Source: Candidatus Terasakiella magnetica
GTDB taxonomy: Bacteria; Pseudomonadota; Alphaproteobacteria; Rhodospirillales; Terasakiellaceae
Assembly (NCBI RefSeq): GCF_900093605.1
Contig: NZ_FLYE01000001.1
Span: 186,001-250,000, forward strand
Direction of reading: 5' to 3'
DNA length: 64,000 nucleotides
Part shown: in pieces, positions 9,897-18,963 of the stretch
Position numbering within the stretch: position 1 is the first letter of the stretch
How the letters are laid out: every line of letters starts with the position of its first letter
Notes under the pieces: model-generated
Databases searched by the model: none
What the model was told of the DNA's origin: nothing
What the model saw: only the letters and a program-made list of their open reading frames with translations
Program-made: the position numbers and the translations under genes

Positions 9897-10676
9897 ATGT
9901 CTGAAGCAACCACACCGGATACAATCGAAATAATTGAATCAAATAAAGTGCATCTTGAAGCGCCAGCACAATGGTTAAAACAAGGATGGACTGATTTTAA
10001 ACAGGCTCCAGCTGTTGGCCTGACCTATGGTGCGATTTTCGTTTTTGCCGGTTATGGATTGTTTTGGGGTCTTGAGGCATTGGGATTAAGCTATTTTATC
10101 TTGCCTCTATCAGGTAGCTTTATGCTCTTTGCCCCATGGTTGGCCCTTGGTCTTTACGAAGTTTCAAGACAACGCGAAAAAGGACAAACGCCTACTTTTG
10201 CAAGTACCTGTAATGCGTGGCGCCAAAGTCCGCGCAGACTTGGGATCATGGCCTTTGTCCTGCTCATTTTCATGTTGGTTTGGACACAGGTTGCCGTTGT
10301 TCTTTATGCCTTGATGATGGGGGATGCCTCGCTTTCCCTTGAAAATATGGGTGTTGATATTTTTGCACGCACGGACGGCCTTGTATTCTTGGCTGTTGGG
10401 TCTATTGTTGGTCTCGTCTTTGCCTCAATCGTTTTTTTGCTCACAGCTGTTTCTGTTCCCATGATTTTGGACCGCGATACTGGCGCATTTGAAGCCATGG
10501 CATTTAGTTTCAAGACTGTGATGAAGAACAGTCATGTGATGTGGAGCTGGGCCTTTACAATCGGCATCATCTCTTGGTTTGCCATTGCCACATTTTTTAT
10601 CGGCCTGATTATCGCCATGCCTGTTTTGGGCTATGCCAGCTGGCATGCTTATCGCGACCTCGTCCCCGCCGAATAA
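9897..10676 (+). CDS. DUF2189-family integral membrane protein
   Basis: The 259-residue protein starts with a polar segment and APAQWLKQGWTDFKQAP, which is characteristic of DUF2189 proteins, then has about six hydrophobic membrane segments (near 40-60, 70-90, 115-140, 160-185, 185-205 and 220-245). Its biochemical function is unknown. It lies 9 bp upstream of the heme A synthase gene, at the head of the respiratory gene run, as is often seen in Alphaproteobacteria. A link to oxidase assembly is only inferred from this position. Confidence 0.8.
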   Translation: MSEATTPDTIEIIESNKVHLEAPAQWLKQGWTDFKQAPAVGLTYGAIFVFAGYGLFWGLEALGLSYFILPLSGSFMLFAPWLALGLYEVSRQREKGQTPTFASTCNAWRQSPRRLGIMAFVLLIFMLVWTQVAVVLYALMMGDASLSLENMGVDIFARTDGLVFLAVGSIVGLVFASIVFLLTAVSVPMILDRDTGAFEAMAFSFKTVMKNSHVMWSWAFTIGIISWFAIATFFIGLIIAMPVLGYASWHAYRDLVPAE

Positions 10677-10685
10677 TCTAAACCT

Positions 10686-11690
10686 ATGCAAGAAACGATG
10701 CGTTTAAAACGTGAGCGCATCATTGGGCTCTGGCTCTTTGGTGTGGCTATGATGGTTTTTTTCATGGTTGTGTTAGGTGGGTTAACCCGCCTGACAGGCT
10801 CAGGCCTTTCCATGGTGGATTGGAAGCCTGTGACAGGTTGGTTGCCGCCCCTAAGCCTTGAAGAATGGCAACGTGTTTTTGAGCTCTATAAACAATCGCC
10901 TCAGTATGAAAAAGTAAACTTCGGCATGAGCCTTGAAGAATTCAGAAATATCTTCTGGTTAGAATTTCTTCATCGCCTGTGGGGGCGTATTATTGGCCTT
11001 GCCTTTGGTCTTCCTCTGGTCTTTTTCATTTTGCGCGGTTGGGTCTCCAAACAAATGATTTTGCCCTTATGTGGCTTGTTTGTTTTAGGCGGCGCACAAG
11101 GCGTTCTGGGCTGGTATATGGTTAAAAGCGGTCTCGTGGATATCCCTGAGGTCAGCCAGTATCGCTTGGCAGCCCATCTTGGTTTTGCCTTTGTTTTATA
11201 TGCGGCATTGATCTGGACGGGTTTGAAATTTTATAAGGGCAAGGGGAGTCTCTCTGGTCTTGTTTGCTCAAAAAAGTCACTTCTGCTTTTGGGCTTAAGT
11301 TACGTGACTATTTTTGCTGGTGCACTCGTTGCAGGGCTTGATGCAGGCTTAACTTATAATACATTCCCGCTTATGGATGGGGAGCTTATCCCAACTGGTT
11401 TATATGATCAGGGACCTTGGTATTTAAATCATTTTGAAAATATCACCACCGTTCAGTTTCAACACCGGGTCTTGGCCATTGCGTTATTGGTATTGTCGAT
11501 TGTTTTCTATTTAAAGAATAAAGAGATACCGATTGTGAAAATATGTGCCTTAGTTGTCTGCCTTCAGGCTGTTATCGGTATTGCGACATTGTTGATGGTC
11601 GTGCCGATCAGCTTGGCCTCGTTGCATCAGGCTGGCGGCTTATTGGTCTTTACAGCCTTTACATGGTTAAATTTTGAAGTGCGATCTTAA
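10686..11690 (+). CDS. ctaA: Heme A synthase (CtaA/COX15)
   Basis: CtaA oxidises the C8 methyl of heme O to give heme A for aa3-type oxidases. The 334-residue protein has about eight membrane helices. The family signature VVLGGLTRLTGSGLSMVDWK is near residue 25, followed by EFLHRLWGRIIG with a heme-ligand histidine. The second half repeats the pattern with QFQHRVLA and ASLHQAGG. Its neighbours DUF420, CtaB and the oxidase subunits support the call. Confidence 0.96.
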   Translation: MQETMRLKRERIIGLWLFGVAMMVFFMVVLGGLTRLTGSGLSMVDWKPVTGWLPPLSLEEWQRVFELYKQSPQYEKVNFGMSLEEFRNIFWLEFLHRLWGRIIGLAFGLPLVFFILRGWVSKQMILPLCGLFVLGGAQGVLGWYMVKSGLVDIPEVSQYRLAAHLGFAFVLYAALIWTGLKFYKGKGSLSGLVCSKKSLLLLGLSYVTIFAGALVAGLDAGLTYNTFPLMDGELIPTGLYDQGPWYLNHFENITTVQFQHRVLAIALLVLSIVFYLKNKEIPIVKICALVVCLQAVIGIATLLMVVPISLASLHQAGGLLVFTAFTWLNFEVRS

Positions 11691-11692
11691 AT

Positions 11693-12127
11693 ATGGAAAT
11701 TTTACCCATTCTTCCCCACTTTCAGGCAATTTTGAATGCGGTCTCGCTCATTCTCATCTGCTTGGCCTTTATTGCGGTTAAATCCGGCGATAAAGAGCGT
11801 CACAAAAAACTGATGATCGCCGCCCTTGCTGTCTCATCCGTGTTTTTAGTGTCTTATCTTTATTATCATGCCCATATCGGTCATGTTCCCTTTAAAGGTG
11901 AGGGGGGGATAAGAACGGTCTATTTCACCATCTTATTTACCCATATTTTGATGGCAGCGATCGCTTTGGTCTTGATTATCATGGCTGTTTGGCGTGCCTT
12001 GATAAAACAGGATTATACCAGCCATAAGAAAGTCGCGCGTTTTACATTCCCTATCTGGGCCTTTGTCTGTGCCTCTGGCATCGTTGTTTATGTCATGGCG
12101 TTCCACATTTATACGGGTAGCGCATGA
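11693..12127 (+). CDS. DUF420-family membrane protein (CtaM-like)
   Basis: This 144-residue protein has four membrane helices and histidines in YYHAHIGH and in FTHIL, as in DUF420 proteins. The Bacillus/Staphylococcus member CtaM is needed for activity of heme-A oxidases (family knowledge), so an assembly role is likely here. The gene starts 2 bp after ctaA and overlaps the next gene by 4 bp, so all three are translationally linked. Confidence 0.85.
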   Translation: MEILPILPHFQAILNAVSLILICLAFIAVKSGDKERHKKLMIAALAVSSVFLVSYLYYHAHIGHVPFKGEGGIRTVYFTILFTHILMAAIALVLIIMAVWRALIKQDYTSHKKVARFTFPIWAFVCASGIVVYVMAFHIYTGSA

Positions 12128-13461
12128 CCTTACGCCAAGAATGTAAAGCCTGGACGTTAATCTCCGTTGGTGCACTGGCAATTGCGGGTATCTTTGCCCT
12201 GCTTTTGGTGCTTTCGCGCACGCCGGGCGTTCAAGATATTTTGCCATGGCCGTGGAAAAGCTTTTTCCATAAAGGGCTTGTGACACATGTTGTGTTTTCA
12301 TTTGTTGTCTGGTTTTTGGCAACAATGGGCGCGATTATGTGCCTGTCTTATGCAAAACAAGTCGGGATAGACCAAGAAAGCCAATGGGGAAAAGGCGCAG
12401 TTGGCCTTGCCATGCTCGGCTGTTTAGGCTTGATCATTCCGGCCTTATTTGATTTGGGCACTGCTGAGCTTAACAACTATATCCCTGTGATGAACCACCC
12501 GATCTATTATGGTGGGCTGGTTTTACTCTTGGCTGGTTTGGTGCTTGTGACTTTGCGTCAATTCACACTGTCTTGGCAAAAGACGAACCAGCTTTCAGGC
12601 ACTCAAACCACTGGGATCATTTATCTTATTGCCGTTTTATGTATGGGGCTGGCCTTTTTCTATATGCCAGAGGGCTTGCCAGACCCAACCTTTAATGAAC
12701 AGCTTTTTTGGGGTGGGGGGCATGTTTTACAGTTTGTGAATACGGCCCTATTGTTTCTTGCATGGATGGTAATCGTTAAAACCGCTACTGGTTTAGAGCT
12801 GATGCCACGTAAATACGTCTATGTGGTGTTTGGCCTGCTTGTTATCTTTTGCCTGCCTGCCCCGGCGATTTATTTTTTGTTTGATATCCTTAGTCAAACA
12901 CATCGGGATTTCTATACAGAGATGCTGCGATATGGGCTGCCTTTACCGTCCATCATTGTTTCTGCTTTTCTGCTTATCTTCCTACTCTCACGGGCTTCAC
13001 GAGAGCTTGATAAAATTAGCCGTTTGGCCTTATGGCTATCACTCTTTACCTATAATCTGGGTGGGCTTTATGGCTTAATGCTGGATGGGACTGATACGCG
13101 GGTGCCTGCGCATTACCATGCGGTTATTGGTGGGATAAACCTTGCCTTTATGGTTTTTTATCACCGTGTGATACTGCCTTTCATCAGCGTTCAGGTGCGC
13201 GAAGGTAAGCTCTTTACAGCCCAATATTGGCTTTATGGTTTAGGCCAAATTATGCATGCCAGTGGCATGTTCCTCGCGGGTAGCCAAGGTGTACCACGCA
13301 AAACTGCAGGGGATGCACAAAGTCTTGATAATATAGAAAAAATCCTTTCCATGGGGCTCATGGGGATTGGGGGATTAATTGCGGTTATCGGTGGTGTTCT
13401 GTTTGTGATTATGACCATGAAATGGATTATTAAAGGAGGTAAAATCTATGAAACGACTTGA
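12124..13461 (+). CDS. Divergent heme-copper oxidase/NO reductase-like subunit I
   Basis: The 445-residue protein has about 12 membrane helices and a NorB/CcoN-like size. Histidines at expected heme positions are H55 (helix 2) and H330-x-H332 in VPAHYHAVIGG (helix 10). H200 in WGGGHVLQF matches the first binuclear-centre metal ligand of helix 6. In helix 7 the usual His-His pair appears as H260-R261 (THRDFY), so one metal ligand seems to be missing. The Glu of NO reductases (HxxxE) and the Tyr of oxidases (HxxxY) after H200 are also absent; it reads HVLQF. It may be an unusual NO reductase or oxidase class, or a non-catalytic paralog. It overlaps the CuA subunit gene by 14 bp. Confidence 0.75.
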   Translation: MTLRQECKAWTLISVGALAIAGIFALLLVLSRTPGVQDILPWPWKSFFHKGLVTHVVFSFVVWFLATMGAIMCLSYAKQVGIDQESQWGKGAVGLAMLGCLGLIIPALFDLGTAELNNYIPVMNHPIYYGGLVLLLAGLVLVTLRQFTLSWQKTNQLSGTQTTGIIYLIAVLCMGLAFFYMPEGLPDPTFNEQLFWGGGHVLQFVNTALLFLAWMVIVKTATGLELMPRKYVYVVFGLLVIFCLPAPAIYFLFDILSQTHRDFYTEMLRYGLPLPSIIVSAFLLIFLLSRASRELDKISRLALWLSLFTYNLGGLYGLMLDGTDTRVPAHYHAVIGGINLAFMVFYHRVILPFISVQVREGKLFTAQYWLYGLGQIMHASGMFLAGSQGVPRKTAGDAQSLDNIEKILSMGLMGIGGLIAVIGGVLFVIMTMKWIIKGGKIYETT

Positions 13462-13897
13462 TTTTATCTTTATCACCCTGATTGGGCTCGTGGCTTTTCT
13501 TTTAGGGGGAAAGTTAATTGATAGTCTTGGTCAAACCCAGATCGGTTTTATAGACCAGCCCCTTACTGATTTATCCGCATTTGAAAAACGCATAGAGGCA
13601 CAAATCCAGTCCGGCGAAGATATCTATCTGCTGGCGCGTCAATGGGAATGGTCCACTGAGCTGACCTTGAAAGAAGGCAAAAATTATAAGCTACATATAG
13701 CTTCTGGGGATATTCAACATGCATTTCATCTTGAAAAGAAAGCAACGGGTCACTCAATCGATATTCTTCTCCAACCGGGGCGCGAATATGTTGTTTCATT
13801 AAATAATCTTACAGCTGGGGTCTATGCCATCGGCTGCACGCAATATTGTGGAATTGAACACAACAAGATGCGTGGAAAATTGATTGTACTTAAATAA
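13448..13897 (+). CDS. Small CuA-domain subunit II partner of the divergent oxidase-like protein
   Basis: The protein has one N-terminal membrane helix (about 5-25) and a cupredoxin domain. The CuA ligands are present: a histidine in IQHAFHLE and the C-x3-C-x3-H-x2-M cluster in CTQYCGIEHNKM. A complete CuA site means it should accept electrons from a cytochrome c or similar donor. At 149 residues it is short, like B-type oxidase subunit II, with one rather than two membrane helices. It overlaps the upstream gene by 14 bp and has AGGAGG in front of its ATG, so the two are probably made together as a complex. Confidence 0.85.
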   Translation: MKRLDFIFITLIGLVAFLLGGKLIDSLGQTQIGFIDQPLTDLSAFEKRIEAQIQSGEDIYLLARQWEWSTELTLKEGKNYKLHIASGDIQHAFHLEKKATGHSIDILLQPGREYVVSLNNLTAGVYAIGCTQYCGIEHNKMRGKLIVLK

Positions 13898-14002: not shown

Positions 14003-14863
14003 ATGGGAGGTTACATTCAGCTCGCCAAACCTCGTATTGGCGTAATGATAGCCCTAACCGCTGTGACCGGATATCTGGCAACAGCGCAACAAGGCGAAGT
14101 TGATCTTACACATCTTTTATTGCTTGCTCTTGCAATGATGATGGGGTCTGCTTCTTCCAGTATTTTTAATCATTTTTATGATCGAGATATCGATCGTTTA
14201 ATGACACGTACAAGCTCGCGTCCTTTTGCCAAGCGTCAAGTGGGTAGCCCTCAACTCGTTTTATGGGTTGCGGCTTCGCTTTTGATTGTTGGCTGTGGCA
14301 TCGCAACGTACGTGTTTAACCCAATCGTTGCGACACATTTGTTCCTCGGCGCCTTCTTTTATGGTGTTGTGTATACAATATGGCTTAAGCGTCGCAACTG
14401 GCTGAATATTGTGATCGGTGGTTTAGCCGGTAGCTTTGCCGTTTTGGCAGGGGCTGCGGCTGTTAATCCTGATCAGTGGCTCTTGCCGATGTTATTGGCA
14501 ATCGTTTTGTTTTTCTGGACGCCGTCCCATTTCTGGGCACTTGCGATGCGTCTTAAAGACCAATATGCCGCCGCAGGTGTGCCCATGCTTCCGGTTGTTG
14601 TCGGAAATGTGGTTACCGCACGTTACATCCTGATCAATAGTATTTTGTTGGTCGGGTCATCACTGTTGCCATGGTTCTTGGGGGAACTGGGCAATATCTA
14701 TGGTGTCGGGGCTGTTGTCCTTGGGGCCTACCTTTTGAAATGTAACATTGATCTGATTAAGTCGTCTGATGAACAGACGGCCATGACCAATTTCTTTGCA
14801 TCGATGAAGTATTTAGGGGGGCTTTTTGTCGTCGTCATAATGGATGTTCACCTGCCAATTTAG
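14003..14863 (+). CDS. ctaB: Protoheme IX farnesyltransferase (heme O synthase, CtaB/COX10)
   Basis: CtaB attaches a farnesyl group to heme B, giving heme O, the substrate of CtaA. The UbiA-family Asp-rich motif is visible as NHFYDRDIDRLMTRTSSRP near residues 55-73, and the second conserved region as WTPSHFWALA. About nine membrane helices fill the 286 residues. It lies 105 bp after the CuA subunit gene; the gap may hold a promoter, but I see no clear one. Confidence 0.96.
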   Translation: MGGYIQLAKPRIGVMIALTAVTGYLATAQQGEVDLTHLLLLALAMMMGSASSSIFNHFYDRDIDRLMTRTSSRPFAKRQVGSPQLVLWVAASLLIVGCGIATYVFNPIVATHLFLGAFFYGVVYTIWLKRRNWLNIVIGGLAGSFAVLAGAAAVNPDQWLLPMLLAIVLFFWTPSHFWALAMRLKDQYAAAGVPMLPVVVGNVVTARYILINSILLVGSSLLPWFLGELGNIYGVGAVVLGAYLLKCNIDLIKSSDEQTAMTNFFASMKYLGGLFVVVIMDVHLPI

Positions 14864-14939: not shown

Positions 14940-15701
14940 ATGTCGGCAGACAGTTCACATGCTCACGAGCATCATTGGGAGTGGTCACAAGCACCATTCT
15001 GGGTGGTGACAGGCATCTTCTTTCTGGTTCCGCTAACATTTGCGGCCTATTTCCAGTATGAAAACCCGCTGCTTGCAGCGATTTTTGCTGGGATTGGTAC
15101 ACCGATGTTACTCGCAGGTATTGCAATGTGGGTTAACGAAGGTTTGACGGTTAAGCCGTTGATTGCAGACGTTGCCGGGGTCGGACTTCCGATCTTTATC
15201 GTATCGGAAATTTTTATTTTCTTATCTTTCTTTGCGACCTATTGGATGATGCGCCTTGGCTCAGAATCCTGGCCGCCAGAAGGTACACCGGATTTTCCGG
15301 TAGCATTACCGCTAATTATGACTGTCATTCTTGTGGCATCTTCTGTGACAATTCACGTTGCGGAAGAAAAATACGAGCATGACGACCAAGCGGGTTTCCG
15401 TAAGTGGTTGATGATCACCATTGGACTGGGTGTAATTTTCGTAGGAATGACTTTCTATGAATATAATCACCTATTCAGCGTTGATTTCTACCCGGACACG
15501 AATGCGTTCGGTACAGTCTTCTTTAGCCTGACCGGTTTCCACGCAAGTCACGTAATCGGTGGACTTGGGATATTTATCTGTGTGTTGATCCCTGCCTTTA
15601 AGGGTATGACAAACAAGACATTTATCACTTGTGCGTCTGTTTACTGGCACTTTGTGGATGTGGTTTGGTTCTTTGTCGTTTCACAGATTTATTTCTGGTA
15701 A
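14940..15701 (+). CDS. ctaE: Cytochrome c oxidase subunit III (CtaE)
   Basis: The 253-residue protein has about seven membrane helices. It carries the family's FHASHVIGG and C-terminal YWHFVDVVWFFVV segments. The start has a very strong Shine-Dalgarno sequence (GAGGGAGGGG). Here subunit III comes first, followed by SCO, subunit II and subunit I, which is not the classical ctaC-D-B-G-E order. It begins the run for the main aa3-type terminal oxidase. Confidence 0.95.
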   Translation: MSADSSHAHEHHWEWSQAPFWVVTGIFFLVPLTFAAYFQYENPLLAAIFAGIGTPMLLAGIAMWVNEGLTVKPLIADVAGVGLPIFIVSEIFIFLSFFATYWMMRLGSESWPPEGTPDFPVALPLIMTVILVASSVTIHVAEEKYEHDDQAGFRKWLMITIGLGVIFVGMTFYEYNHLFSVDFYPDTNAFGTVFFSLTGFHASHVIGGLGIFICVLIPAFKGMTNKTFITCASVYWHFVDVVWFFVVSQIYFW

Positions 15702-15717
15702 GGCAGGGGCTGTGCGT

Positions 15718-16563
15718 ATGATGCGAAATATGGTTTTAGCATTTCTGGGTTTTGTTTTTGTGTTAGGTCTCTCAGTTGAGGCCTTGGCAGCGCAAACGTT
15801 CAAAGTGCCGGAGTCTGAAATCGATCCTGAAGCCTTGAGGATCAATGAAGCAAAAATCCTCGGTTTAAAACCGAAGAAAGGATTTTCGTTTCTAGATCAG
15901 GATGGCAATGCCTTCACTTTTAGAGATCGTGTGGGTAAGCCGTTGGTTTTGGTTATGTCCTATTACACTTGCGATGGCGTTTGTTCCTCAGTTAATATTG
16001 AACTGGGCGAACGTTTGCTTGAGCTTGAAAATACAGGGCGGATCAAACCGGGTAAGGATTTTGACGTTGTGACCGTATCGTTTGATAAGAATGATACTTT
16101 GGAAACACTCAATAAGTTTCGCAAACATGTTGGATTAGATAAAGACGTGGCAGACGGCTGGACATTTGCCGTTGCCAGTGACGCTGATCGTGAAAGAATT
16201 AAAGAATTTACGGATCATTATGATTACCGTTTTTTCTGGTCTTCTTATGATCGCACTTTTTATCACCCAACCGTTTATATGGTTCTGTCAAAAGATATGC
16301 GATTGAGCCGTGTTTTATACGCCCACGATATTGAAGTCAGTGATATTGAGCTGGCGGTTTTGGAATCCCATGAAGGGAATTTCAAACCCAGTGAGATCAT
16401 CAATTATGCCGTTTCCCTGTGCTATAGCTATAGCTACAAAGACGGCAAATATGTTTTTAACATCCCCATGTTTGTTGCTTTTGGTTCACTTATCCTTGGG
16501 GTAAGTGCGTTGGGAACGTCCGTTCTGGCCTATAAGCGCAGACAACGTAAAAAGGAGGGATAG
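15718..16563 (+). CDS. SCO1/SenC-family copper chaperone
   Basis: SCO proteins help load copper into the CuA site of subunit II. I choose the ATG at 15718 because AGGGG lies eight bases upstream and the resulting N-terminus is a signal peptide or anchor ending near ALA-AQ. A longer frame reaching into ctaE is unlikely. The CxxxC copper site is TCDGVC and the partner histidine is in FYHPTVYM. A C-terminal membrane helix with a basic tail (about 250-275) is less common in SCO proteins. The gene lies directly before subunit II, its expected client. Confidence 0.93.
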   Translation: MMRNMVLAFLGFVFVLGLSVEALAAQTFKVPESEIDPEALRINEAKILGLKPKKGFSFLDQDGNAFTFRDRVGKPLVLVMSYYTCDGVCSSVNIELGERLLELENTGRIKPGKDFDVVTVSFDKNDTLETLNKFRKHVGLDKDVADGWTFAVASDADRERIKEFTDHYDYRFFWSSYDRTFYHPTVYMVLSKDMRLSRVLYAHDIEVSDIELAVLESHEGNFKPSEIINYAVSLCYSYSYKDGKYVFNIPMFVAFGSLILGVSALGTSVLAYKRRQRKKEG

Positions 16564-16566
16564 CCT

Positions 16567-17301
16567 ATGAGAACGTATTTCGGGAAAGCCGTTATTGCCT
16601 TAAGTGCAATGTTATTGGCCCTACCTGCGTTCGCAGAAGAGGGGGGTTACGAGCGTGACCCTGCTGCCGGTTGGGATCATCTATGGACAGAAATCATCAT
16701 AGATATCACCGTAATCGGTGTAATTTTTAGTATCGCAGCGATTTACATGGTGTGGAAATACCGTGCAAAAAGCGAAGATGAGGTTGGTACAGCACCAAAA
16801 TTATCCAAAGCTGCTGCAATTGCATGGGTTTTGATCCCTGCATCTTTGTTCATGGCAGATGATTTCTTCTTATCTGCAAAAGGTTGGACACTTTGGAATG
16901 ACTATCGTCGTATTCCTGATGAAGCCCAAGAAATTCGCGTAACAGCGTATCAATGGTATTGGGAATTTGATTACGGTGATGAGTTGGTTGCTGAAGAACT
17001 TGTTGTGAAAAAAGGACAACCTATTGTTCTTCGTATGACATCTGAAGATGTGTTGCATTCACTTTACATTCCTGAATTCCGTGTGAAAGAGGATGTAATG
17101 CCGGGTCGTGTGACGTATGTCTGGTTCAACCCAAAAGAAACGGGTGAATTCGTCCATACATGTACGGAGTACTGTGGGACGGCACATGCCGAGATGTATA
17201 CAAATGTTCGTGTTGTTGAAGAAGCTGAATACGATCAATTTATTAATCAGCTTAAAGAAGAGGCAAAAGCCGATTCTAAAGCACAGAACCCACAAAGCTA
17301 A
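16567..17301 (+). CDS. ctaC: Cytochrome c oxidase subunit II (CtaC)
   Basis: The protein has a signal peptide (AFA-EE near residue 20), two membrane helices (about 38-62 and 77-98) and a CuA cupredoxin domain. The aromatic YQWYWEF segment passes electrons from CuA to heme a. CuA ligands are a histidine in DVLHSLYIPEF and the cluster CTEYCGTAHAEM. No fused cytochrome c domain is present (244 residues). It follows SCO by 3 bp and precedes subunit I by 18 bp. Confidence 0.97.
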   Translation: MRTYFGKAVIALSAMLLALPAFAEEGGYERDPAAGWDHLWTEIIIDITVIGVIFSIAAIYMVWKYRAKSEDEVGTAPKLSKAAAIAWVLIPASLFMADDFFLSAKGWTLWNDYRRIPDEAQEIRVTAYQWYWEFDYGDELVAEELVVKKGQPIVLRMTSEDVLHSLYIPEFRVKEDVMPGRVTYVWFNPKETGEFVHTCTEYCGTAHAEMYTNVRVVEEAEYDQFINQLKEEAKADSKAQNPQS

Positions 17302-17319
17302 GGGGAGGTTGGAAACAGT

Positions 17320-18963
17320 ATGACTTCACAAGCTTTTAAAGAGTGGTTTTTTACAACAGACCATAAGCGTATCGGGATCATGTATCTCGTTGGGTCCATG
17401 GCAGCATTTGTTGTCGCGGGCCTTATGGCGTTGTTGATCCGTTTGGAACAGTCCAATTTGGGCCCGACCATTACGGATAACCCTAATGAATATAACTCTT
17501 GGCTTTATTTCCATGGTGCTGCCATGGTTCTGGCCTTTTTGATCCCGGGGCTCACAGGGTTCTTTGCGAACTACTTCCTACCACTGATGATCGGTGCGCA
17601 GGATGTGGCCTTCCCGCGGATTAATGCCTTTTCAATCTGGTTGTTCTACGGTGCGATTATTCTTGCACTGTTGAGCTTTGTTATCCCTGATGCACCAGAT
17701 GTCATGTGGACGGGCTATCCGCCTTATTCTGTGACCACAACCACGAACACGGCCTTTTATGTCTTTACCGTTCACTTACTTGGTTTTAGTTCCGTACTTG
17801 GGGCTGTAAACTTCTTGGTGACGGTGATTTACATGCGCGCGCCGGGCATGGGTTGGAACCAGCTGAACATCTTTACTTGGACAACGGTTGCTGCTTTTGT
17901 TTTGCAGTTGATCTTCATTCCGGTATTGGCTTCTGCTGTAACCATGCTTTTGTTTGATAAGTATTTGGGTACGAGCTTCTTTAACCCAGAAGCTGGTGGC
18001 GATGTGTTGCTGTATCAGAACTTGTTCTGGTTCTACTCTCACCCTGCGGTATATGTAATCTTCTTACCGGCTTGTGGTATCTTGTTCGAAATTTTTGCAA
18101 CCATGTGTAAAAACCGTGTCTTTAACTATAAGGCATGTGTGTATGGTGGCATCTGGGGTATCGTTGGTATCTCTGGTTTCGTATGGATCCACCACTTGTA
18201 TGTATCTGGTATGCCAGATTGGTTACGTATCGGTCAGATGGTGACAACGCTGTTGATCTCGGTCCCTGTGGGGCTGATGGTTATGTCCATGTGGGGGACC
18301 CTTTATCGCGCGGCGATTACCTTTAACACGGGGATGCTTTATGCAATTTCCTGTTTGTTCTTGGTGCTTTCAGGCGGTCTAACAGGTATTCCGCTGGCTT
18401 TGACAGCCATTACAGTTCACCTGTCTGAAACGTCCTTTGTTCACGCTCACTTCCACTTTATTATGGCGATGTTCTCTGCATTTGCGATGTTTGCCGGTAT
18501 TTATTACTGGTTCCCGAAAATGTTTGGACGTTACGCTGATGGTAAATGGGCAACAACGGGCTTTATCTTCAACATTATCGGTGTGCACGTGACCTTTATT
18601 CCGTTGTTCATCGTTGGTGTAGAAGGCATGCCACGACGTTACTGGGATTACCAAATGTTCCCGCAGTTTGAACCGTATCACCAAGTCGCAACAGTGGGTG
18701 CCTTTATGGTTGCCACTGGTATGGCGATTACGATCTTAAACTGGGTTCACAGTGCCTTTAAAGGCAAGGTTGCACCGGAAAACCCATGGAAGTCATGTTC
18801 TATGGAATGGACCCATGCGCCAAACTGCCCACAAGCGGGTAACTTCCCGAACCCACCATCTGTTCAGCCAGAATGGACACCTTATGGTTATGATGACCGT
18901 GAGGCCAATATGGCAGCAACAACAGACCCGGGTTATCCGACTGATGCTAAACCGGCAGAATGA
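17320..18963 (+). CDS. ctaD: Cytochrome c oxidase subunit I, A2-type (CtaD)
   Basis: Subunit I carries heme a, heme a3 and CuB and reduces oxygen to water while pumping protons. All metal ligands are visible: the helix 6 His in WFYSHPAVYV, the His-His dyad in WIHHLYVSG and the pair in HAHFHF. The YSHPAV form, without the usual glutamate of HPEVY, places it in the A2 subfamily. It has 12 core helices in 547 residues and a Pro/Trp-rich C-terminal tail. A 41-residue membrane protein gene follows by 2 bp. Confidence 0.97.
   Translation: MTSQAFKEWFFTTDHKRIGIMYLVGSMAAFVVAGLMALLIRLEQSNLGPTITDNPNEYNSWLYFHGAAMVLAFLIPGLTGFFANYFLPLMIGAQDVAFPRINAFSIWLFYGAIILALLSFVIPDAPDVMWTGYPPYSVTTTTNTAFYVFTVHLLGFSSVLGAVNFLVTVIYMRAPGMGWNQLNIFTWTTVAAFVLQLIFIPVLASAVTMLLFDKYLGTSFFNPEAGGDVLLYQNLFWFYSHPAVYVIFLPACGILFEIFATMCKNRVFNYKACVYGGIWGIVGISGFVWIHHLYVSGMPDWLRIGQMVTTLLISVPVGLMVMSMWGTLYRAAITFNTGMLYAISCLFLVLSGGLTGIPLALTAITVHLSETSFVHAHFHFIMAMFSAFAMFAGIYYWFPKMFGRYADGKWATTGFIFNIIGVHVTFIPLFIVGVEGMPRRYWDYQMFPQFEPYHQVATVGAFMVATGMAITILNWVHSAFKGKVAPENPWKSCSMEWTHAPNCPQAGNFPNPPSVQPEWTPYGYDDREANMAATTDPGYPTDAKPAE

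Follow-up and report, generated by a model that had tools for sequence, protein, structure and literature searches.

A conserved family of heme-copper oxidoreductase subunit I paralogues, predicted to lack CuB, beside oxidase maturation genes in Terasakiella

The window, which is the whole 64,000-nucleotide stretch that was analysed, comes from the genus Terasakiella (Alphaproteobacteria) and contains a gene run on the + strand that reads, from Pfam matches, DUF2189, ctaA, DUF420, a heme-copper oxidoreductase (HCO)-like gene, CuA, ctaB, cox3, sco, cox2 and cox1. The run is headed by a BPSS1780-like DUF2189 membrane protein (9897-10676, assigned from 121 bits to Pfam DUF2189 and from gene order), followed by ctaA/COX15 for heme A synthase (10686-11690, COX15-CtaA 339.5 bits) and by a DUF420 protein of the CtaM family with 144 aa (11693-12127, 126.7 bits). 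The HCO-like gene (12124-13461) overlaps the DUF420 gene by 4 bases and encodes a subunit-I-like protein of 445 aa, predicted to lack CuB from the ORF, Pfam COX1, the family alignment and the fold. Its 3' end overlaps by 14 bases the ORF of a CuA (COX2-like) protein of 149 aa with intact CuA ligands (13448-13897). Then, ctaB for heme O synthase of the UbiA family (14003-14863, UbiA 188.7 bits) lies ahead of an ordinary A-type cytochrome c oxidase operon, cox3-sco-cox2-cox1 (14940-18963), which keeps the HH dyad and is without Cox11. Three genes of the COX1 family are present in the genome: the operon cox1, a cbb3-type gene and the HCO-like gene. Every Terasakiella locus read has the DUF2189 gene at this position, and it also lies near some other loci of the HCO-like family.

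The HCO-like protein scored 56.7 bits against Pfam COX1 (cut-off 34.8), and no NCBIfam model matched it. A PDB search with its single sequence gave no useful match, whereas a search with the family profile returned HCOs as all top matches, the best being the ba3 oxidase of Thermus with an E-value of about 1e-22. The AlphaFold (AF2) model has an HCO fold (pLDDT 80, pTM 0.85), and Foldseek matched it to ba3, aa3, cbb3 and NOR structures, with ba3 the nearest (E 2e-7). The protein is a genuine member of the HCO superfamily with the 12-TM subunit I fold.

Metal ligands were assigned by aligning the Thermus ba3 oxidase with a profile built from 30 diverse members of the family, and conservation was counted over 118 distinct aligned members. 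Exactly four His are invariant in this alignment: H55, H200, H330 and H332. H55 in helix II (12286-12288, + strand, as for all residues below) is aligned to the low-spin heme ligand of ba3, and H330-Y331-H332 in helix X (13111-13119) contains the ligands of the second heme and of the low-spin heme, so that the bis-His site of the low-spin heme (helices II and X) and the proximal His of the second heme are present in 118/118. The claim of the earlier note that the low- and high-spin heme ligands are complete was thus borne out. The stretch H200-V-L-Q203 in helix VI (12721-12732) begins at the residue that corresponds to the first CuB ligand in HCOs and has both H200 and Q203 in every member, and R392-K393 (13297-13302), also in 118/118, is aligned with the Arg pair that HCOs have at the heme propionates (VPRR in ba3). 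W10, V56, Y119, P121, W196, G199 and Y331 are likewise invariant, and at least 16 positions are so in the family. Within the genus, dN/dS was about 0.1-0.15, a value that is only rough because synonymous sites are nearly saturated.

To our knowledge, all characterised heme-copper oxidoreductases contain a heme and a CuB or FeB centre. Of the three His that hold CuB or FeB, the family keeps H200, and the HH of helix VII is absent in 118/118. The earlier note had placed a broken helix VII dyad at H260-R261 (12901-12906); the dyad is indeed absent, while its position was misplaced, since the HH of ba3 falls over I249-Y250 (12868-12873), which is never HH in the family. H260 lies about 10 residues further on, in the VII-VIII loop, it is His in 32/118 members only, and neither it nor R261 is conserved. 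In the AlphaFold model, helix VII ends at about residue 253, and confidence is low from 251 to 260. A second His of helix VII displaced nearby was also looked for over the 118 members, and none was conserved, so that a normal active site was not recovered. HH did not occur at the dyad columns of any aligned member, and between residues 236 and 275 it was present only in the loop of one protein, entered under two names, eL022 and L064. A-type and eNOR-like proteins of the same genomes keep the dyad. Since it is missing in all aligned members, its loss is a family trait and not a mutation of a single gene. The Phe four residues after H200, reported earlier, was also found: F204 occupies the place of the cross-linked Tyr of A- and B-type O2 reductases, with F in 93/118 and Y in 7/118 members. 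As a separate observation, the second dyad position, residue 250 (12871-12873), is Tyr in 69/118 and His in 16/118, and position 206, which follows H200 by six residues, has Asn in 72/118 and His in 36/118; these residues may be alternative ligands in subclades.

Several known systems are close to the family. The ba3 oxidase of Thermus thermophilus shares the aligned heme ligands, the propionate Arg position and a CuA partner of the same type; in contrast, its HH corresponds to I-Y and its cross-linked Tyr to Phe in the HCO-like protein, which is about 100 residues shorter and 15-18% identical. The eNOR enzymes (ba3-a1, with a CuA subunit and Q at the Tyr position) resemble the family in the GHxxQ of helix VI and occur in the same genomes, whereas eNOR-like proteins keep HH (AHHLL), have about 566 aa and form a separate clade. 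These 566-aa relatives were initially labelled sNOR, a label replaced by eNOR-like given the Q at the Tyr position. For sNOR/NorSY, gNOR, bNOR, cNOR and qNOR, the residue at that position is N, D, N, E and E, respectively (PMC8756737, Table A4), and several NOR types have a cupredoxin/CuA subunit (PMC8756737). They belong to the HCO superfamily as the HCO-like family does, which unlike them has F and no HH. The A-type aa3 of the same operon shares the subunit I fold, a CuA partner and the neighbours of the HCO-like protein, but keeps HH, Tyr and the H ligands and is deeply separate in the tree.

Family searches covered the own phylum, as the order, a class sample and a phylum sample. The family is present in 212/317 genomes of the order, or 88/115 genera, in 6/385 sampled genomes of the class (two of these six from the order) and in 59/398 genomes of the phylum sample, mostly from other classes; no relatives were found in viral contigs and plasmids. 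In a quick tree with midpoint root, its members separate as a single group from the A-, C- and eNOR-like sequences (SH-aLRT 100). Judged from sequence, these HCO-like proteins are a clade of their own, nearest to the ba3 (B-family) oxidases, and the family is a distinct and widely kept set of HCO subunit I paralogues from which the binuclear (CuB) centre appears to have been lost. Its most distant subclade lies near multiheme c and ResB/CcsA genes. In a subclade from other classes of the phylum, with a C-terminal TPR stretch, the HCO-like open frames (L065-L072) have 600-900 aa, and their neighbours include genes for multiheme cytochrome c, ResB-like, CcsA-like and NHL-repeat proteins.

The CuA ORF matched Pfam COX2 marginally, with 21.8 bits for a cut-off of 22, and its CuA site is nonetheless complete, as had been noted before (H91, C130, C134, H138 and M141). 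The motif (His ... CxxxCxxxHxxM) is intact in the window protein and in 24/24 adjacent partners. A CuA gene lies directly 3' of the HCO gene at 24/94 loci and no adjacent one was found at 70/94, so the partner was dropped as a family-defining trait. HCO-CuA pairs also occur with no oxidase gene nearby (L107, L116 and L132).

The family usually lies beside genes of heme A/O synthesis and oxidase assembly. Within 6 kb, in counts without correction for phylogeny, DUF420/CtaM was found at 62/94 loci, ctaB at 59/94 and ctaA at 18/94, COX genes often adjoin, and the commonest gene order is DUF420-HCO-ctaB next to a cox operon. Of the 317 genomes of the order, 204 have both the family and DUF420, 8 the family only, 8 DUF420 only and 97 neither, which corresponds to a phi of 0.89 from raw counts with phylogeny ignored. 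The co-occurrence holds where the two are unlinked, as in G560, with the genes far apart. Outside the order, DUF420 over the cut-off was found in 25/40 family-positive and in 0/40 family-negative genomes, phylogeny again being ignored. Besides the 8 order genomes, the family thus occurs without DUF420 in 15/40 genomes outside the order; members of this kind still adjoin ctaA (L061-L063 and L084), as does the HCO gene of remote members. Many close relatives have an aa3 oxidase without either DUF420 or the HCO-like family. In Bacillus subtilis, DUF420 works without the HCO-like family. Staphylococcus aureus needs CtaM for a functional aa3 oxidase (PMC4958251), and for B. subtilis a role of CtaM in the export, and possibly the reduction, of copper for oxidase assembly has been proposed (PMC13344008).

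Within Terasakiella, the oxidase downstream of ctaB varies. The operon cox3-sco-cox2-cox1 is present in the window and in L005, L045 and L046, while cox2-cox1-cox11-cox3 occupies the same site in L004 (8810-12621) and L006 (8734-12561), and in all these loci DUF2189-ctaA-DUF420-HCO-CuA-ctaB keeps an identical order. Since the oxidase type is swapped and the module is constant, the module is tied to the supply of heme A/O and oxidase in general, and not to one oxidase. Cox11 (PF04442) was not found in the whole genome of the window (G000), where the A-type operon is present, and it occurs in two of the other five Terasakiella genomes. The family was considered as a functional replacement of Cox11 and rejected as such, because T. 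pusilla and many other genomes carry both. CtaM, Cox11, Sco and Surf1 share the genomic module with the HCO-like family and likely the same pathway, but have no relation to it in sequence or fold.

Since the dyad is lost, the heme sites are intact and the usual neighbours are oxidase-assembly genes, the HCO-like protein is probably a helper that moves electrons while an oxidase is being built, and not an oxidase or a NO reductase itself. The best explanation, with a probability of about 0.5, is that the protein transfers electrons for oxidase maturation, as a diheme module without CuB. The electron-transfer paralog suggested in the earlier note fits in this respect, as heme and CuA sites are kept and the CuB/FeB dyad is lost across the whole family. 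The protein would bind two hemes, normal O2 chemistry would not be expected since CuB is absent, and electrons would enter at the low-spin heme, coming from CuA at loci that have it, and pass on to the second heme. It may therefore be pictured as a periplasm-side diheme conduit, fed by the small CuA protein at those loci that have one, whose electrons or heme pocket would, along with CtaM, CtaA and CtaB, serve to mature heme A/O-copper oxidases. Copper loading in the CtaM pathway could use it as a local redox partner, or it could take part in heme A/O handling or loading as a periplasmic redox step; the choice among these redox steps is the least certain part of the proposal, along with a possible role of H200 as sixth ligand of the second heme. 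That this oxidase-derived family is a CuB-less diheme conduit (of three metal sites when CuA is included) dedicated to the building of heme-copper oxidases is proposed more tentatively, at appreciably less than an even chance. The stand-alone HCO-CuA pairs and the distant subclade near multiheme c and ResB/CcsA genes speak against a maturation role, as do the genomes that carry the family but no DUF420, the working of DUF420 in B. subtilis in the absence of the family, and the many close relatives that have an aa3 oxidase and neither of the two.

An independent terminal enzyme, reducing NO, O2 or another small molecule at a CuB-free site made of the second heme, H200 and Q203, is a doubtful alternative, and it is equally doubtful that ctaA and ctaB adjoin because such an enzyme needs heme A or O. 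The invariance of H200 and Q203, the Q at +3 shared with eNOR-like relatives and an intact CuA partner as electron supply would suit it, as would the HCO-CuA pairs that follow an eNOR-like operon at several loci of one related family (f22, g287 and g275; L099-L101, L108 and L112), but the HH dyad is missing, the Tyr position has no E, Q, N or D, and the adjacent CuA gene is absent at most loci. The NO reductase signature (E, E, N, N, Q or D together with HH) is not present, the protein having F204 and no HH. The genomic context argues in the same direction: neither a NO-forming nitrite reductase nor a canonical NO reductase was recognisable in the own genome, where there was no match to Cu nitrite reductase, the cytochrome d1 match was weak and partial, and none of the three COX1 matches is a canonical NOR. 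Within the genus, G002 alone gave strong NirS matches, and this genome encodes further COX1-family proteins, with 446 aa (NorB size) and 779 aa. The NO reductase reading is not supported by the searches for nitrite reductase and COX1-family genes in the genus. The new NO reductase or oxidase variant envisaged earlier also finds no support in view of the missing HH, the Phe in 93/118 members and neighbouring genes that serve oxidase and heme O/A assembly, not denitrification.

It is unlikely that the protein is an extra subunit with a mainly structural part in an oxidase or supercomplex, its hemes acting as a relay only. Its subunit I fold and frequent place beside cox genes would agree with such a role, whereas the module adjoins two unrelated COX types in one genus, lies by eNOR-like operons, or stands apart from any oxidase. 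That the protein is a membrane-bound heme sensor for O2, NO or the redox state and regulates the oxidase or heme A synthesis is very unlikely: the linkage to heme A genes and hemes whose distal face is free or gated by His, which could sense gas, are compatible with it, but a 445-aa protein without output domain, a CuA electron input left unexplained and no consistently adjacent regulator gene are not. Although the catalytic dyad is gone, the idea that this oxidase gene is decaying and without function is refuted by the conservation of the family, which is kept in 88/115 genera with at least 16 invariant positions, dN/dS of about 0.1 and an intact CuA partner.

If the electron-transfer module is confirmed, conserved heme and CuA sites without CuB would be a natural split of electron delivery from catalysis, and the conduit could supply, within the CtaM pathway, the periplasmic redox step that is still missing for the loading of copper or heme A/O. 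The co-occurrence with CtaM gives a handle on copper and heme A/O loading and on the redox partner in oxidase biogenesis. For annotation, domain matches can count CuB-less genes as oxidases or NO reductases.

At the loci of f22, one related family (L099, L100, L101, L108 and L112), the eNOR-like operon that precedes the HCO-CuA pair consists of CuA, eNOR-like and sco genes, with ctaB or ctaA in some. The expression described for MSR1_08150 of M. gryphiswaldense (PMC9549626) might relate to a gene of this kind.
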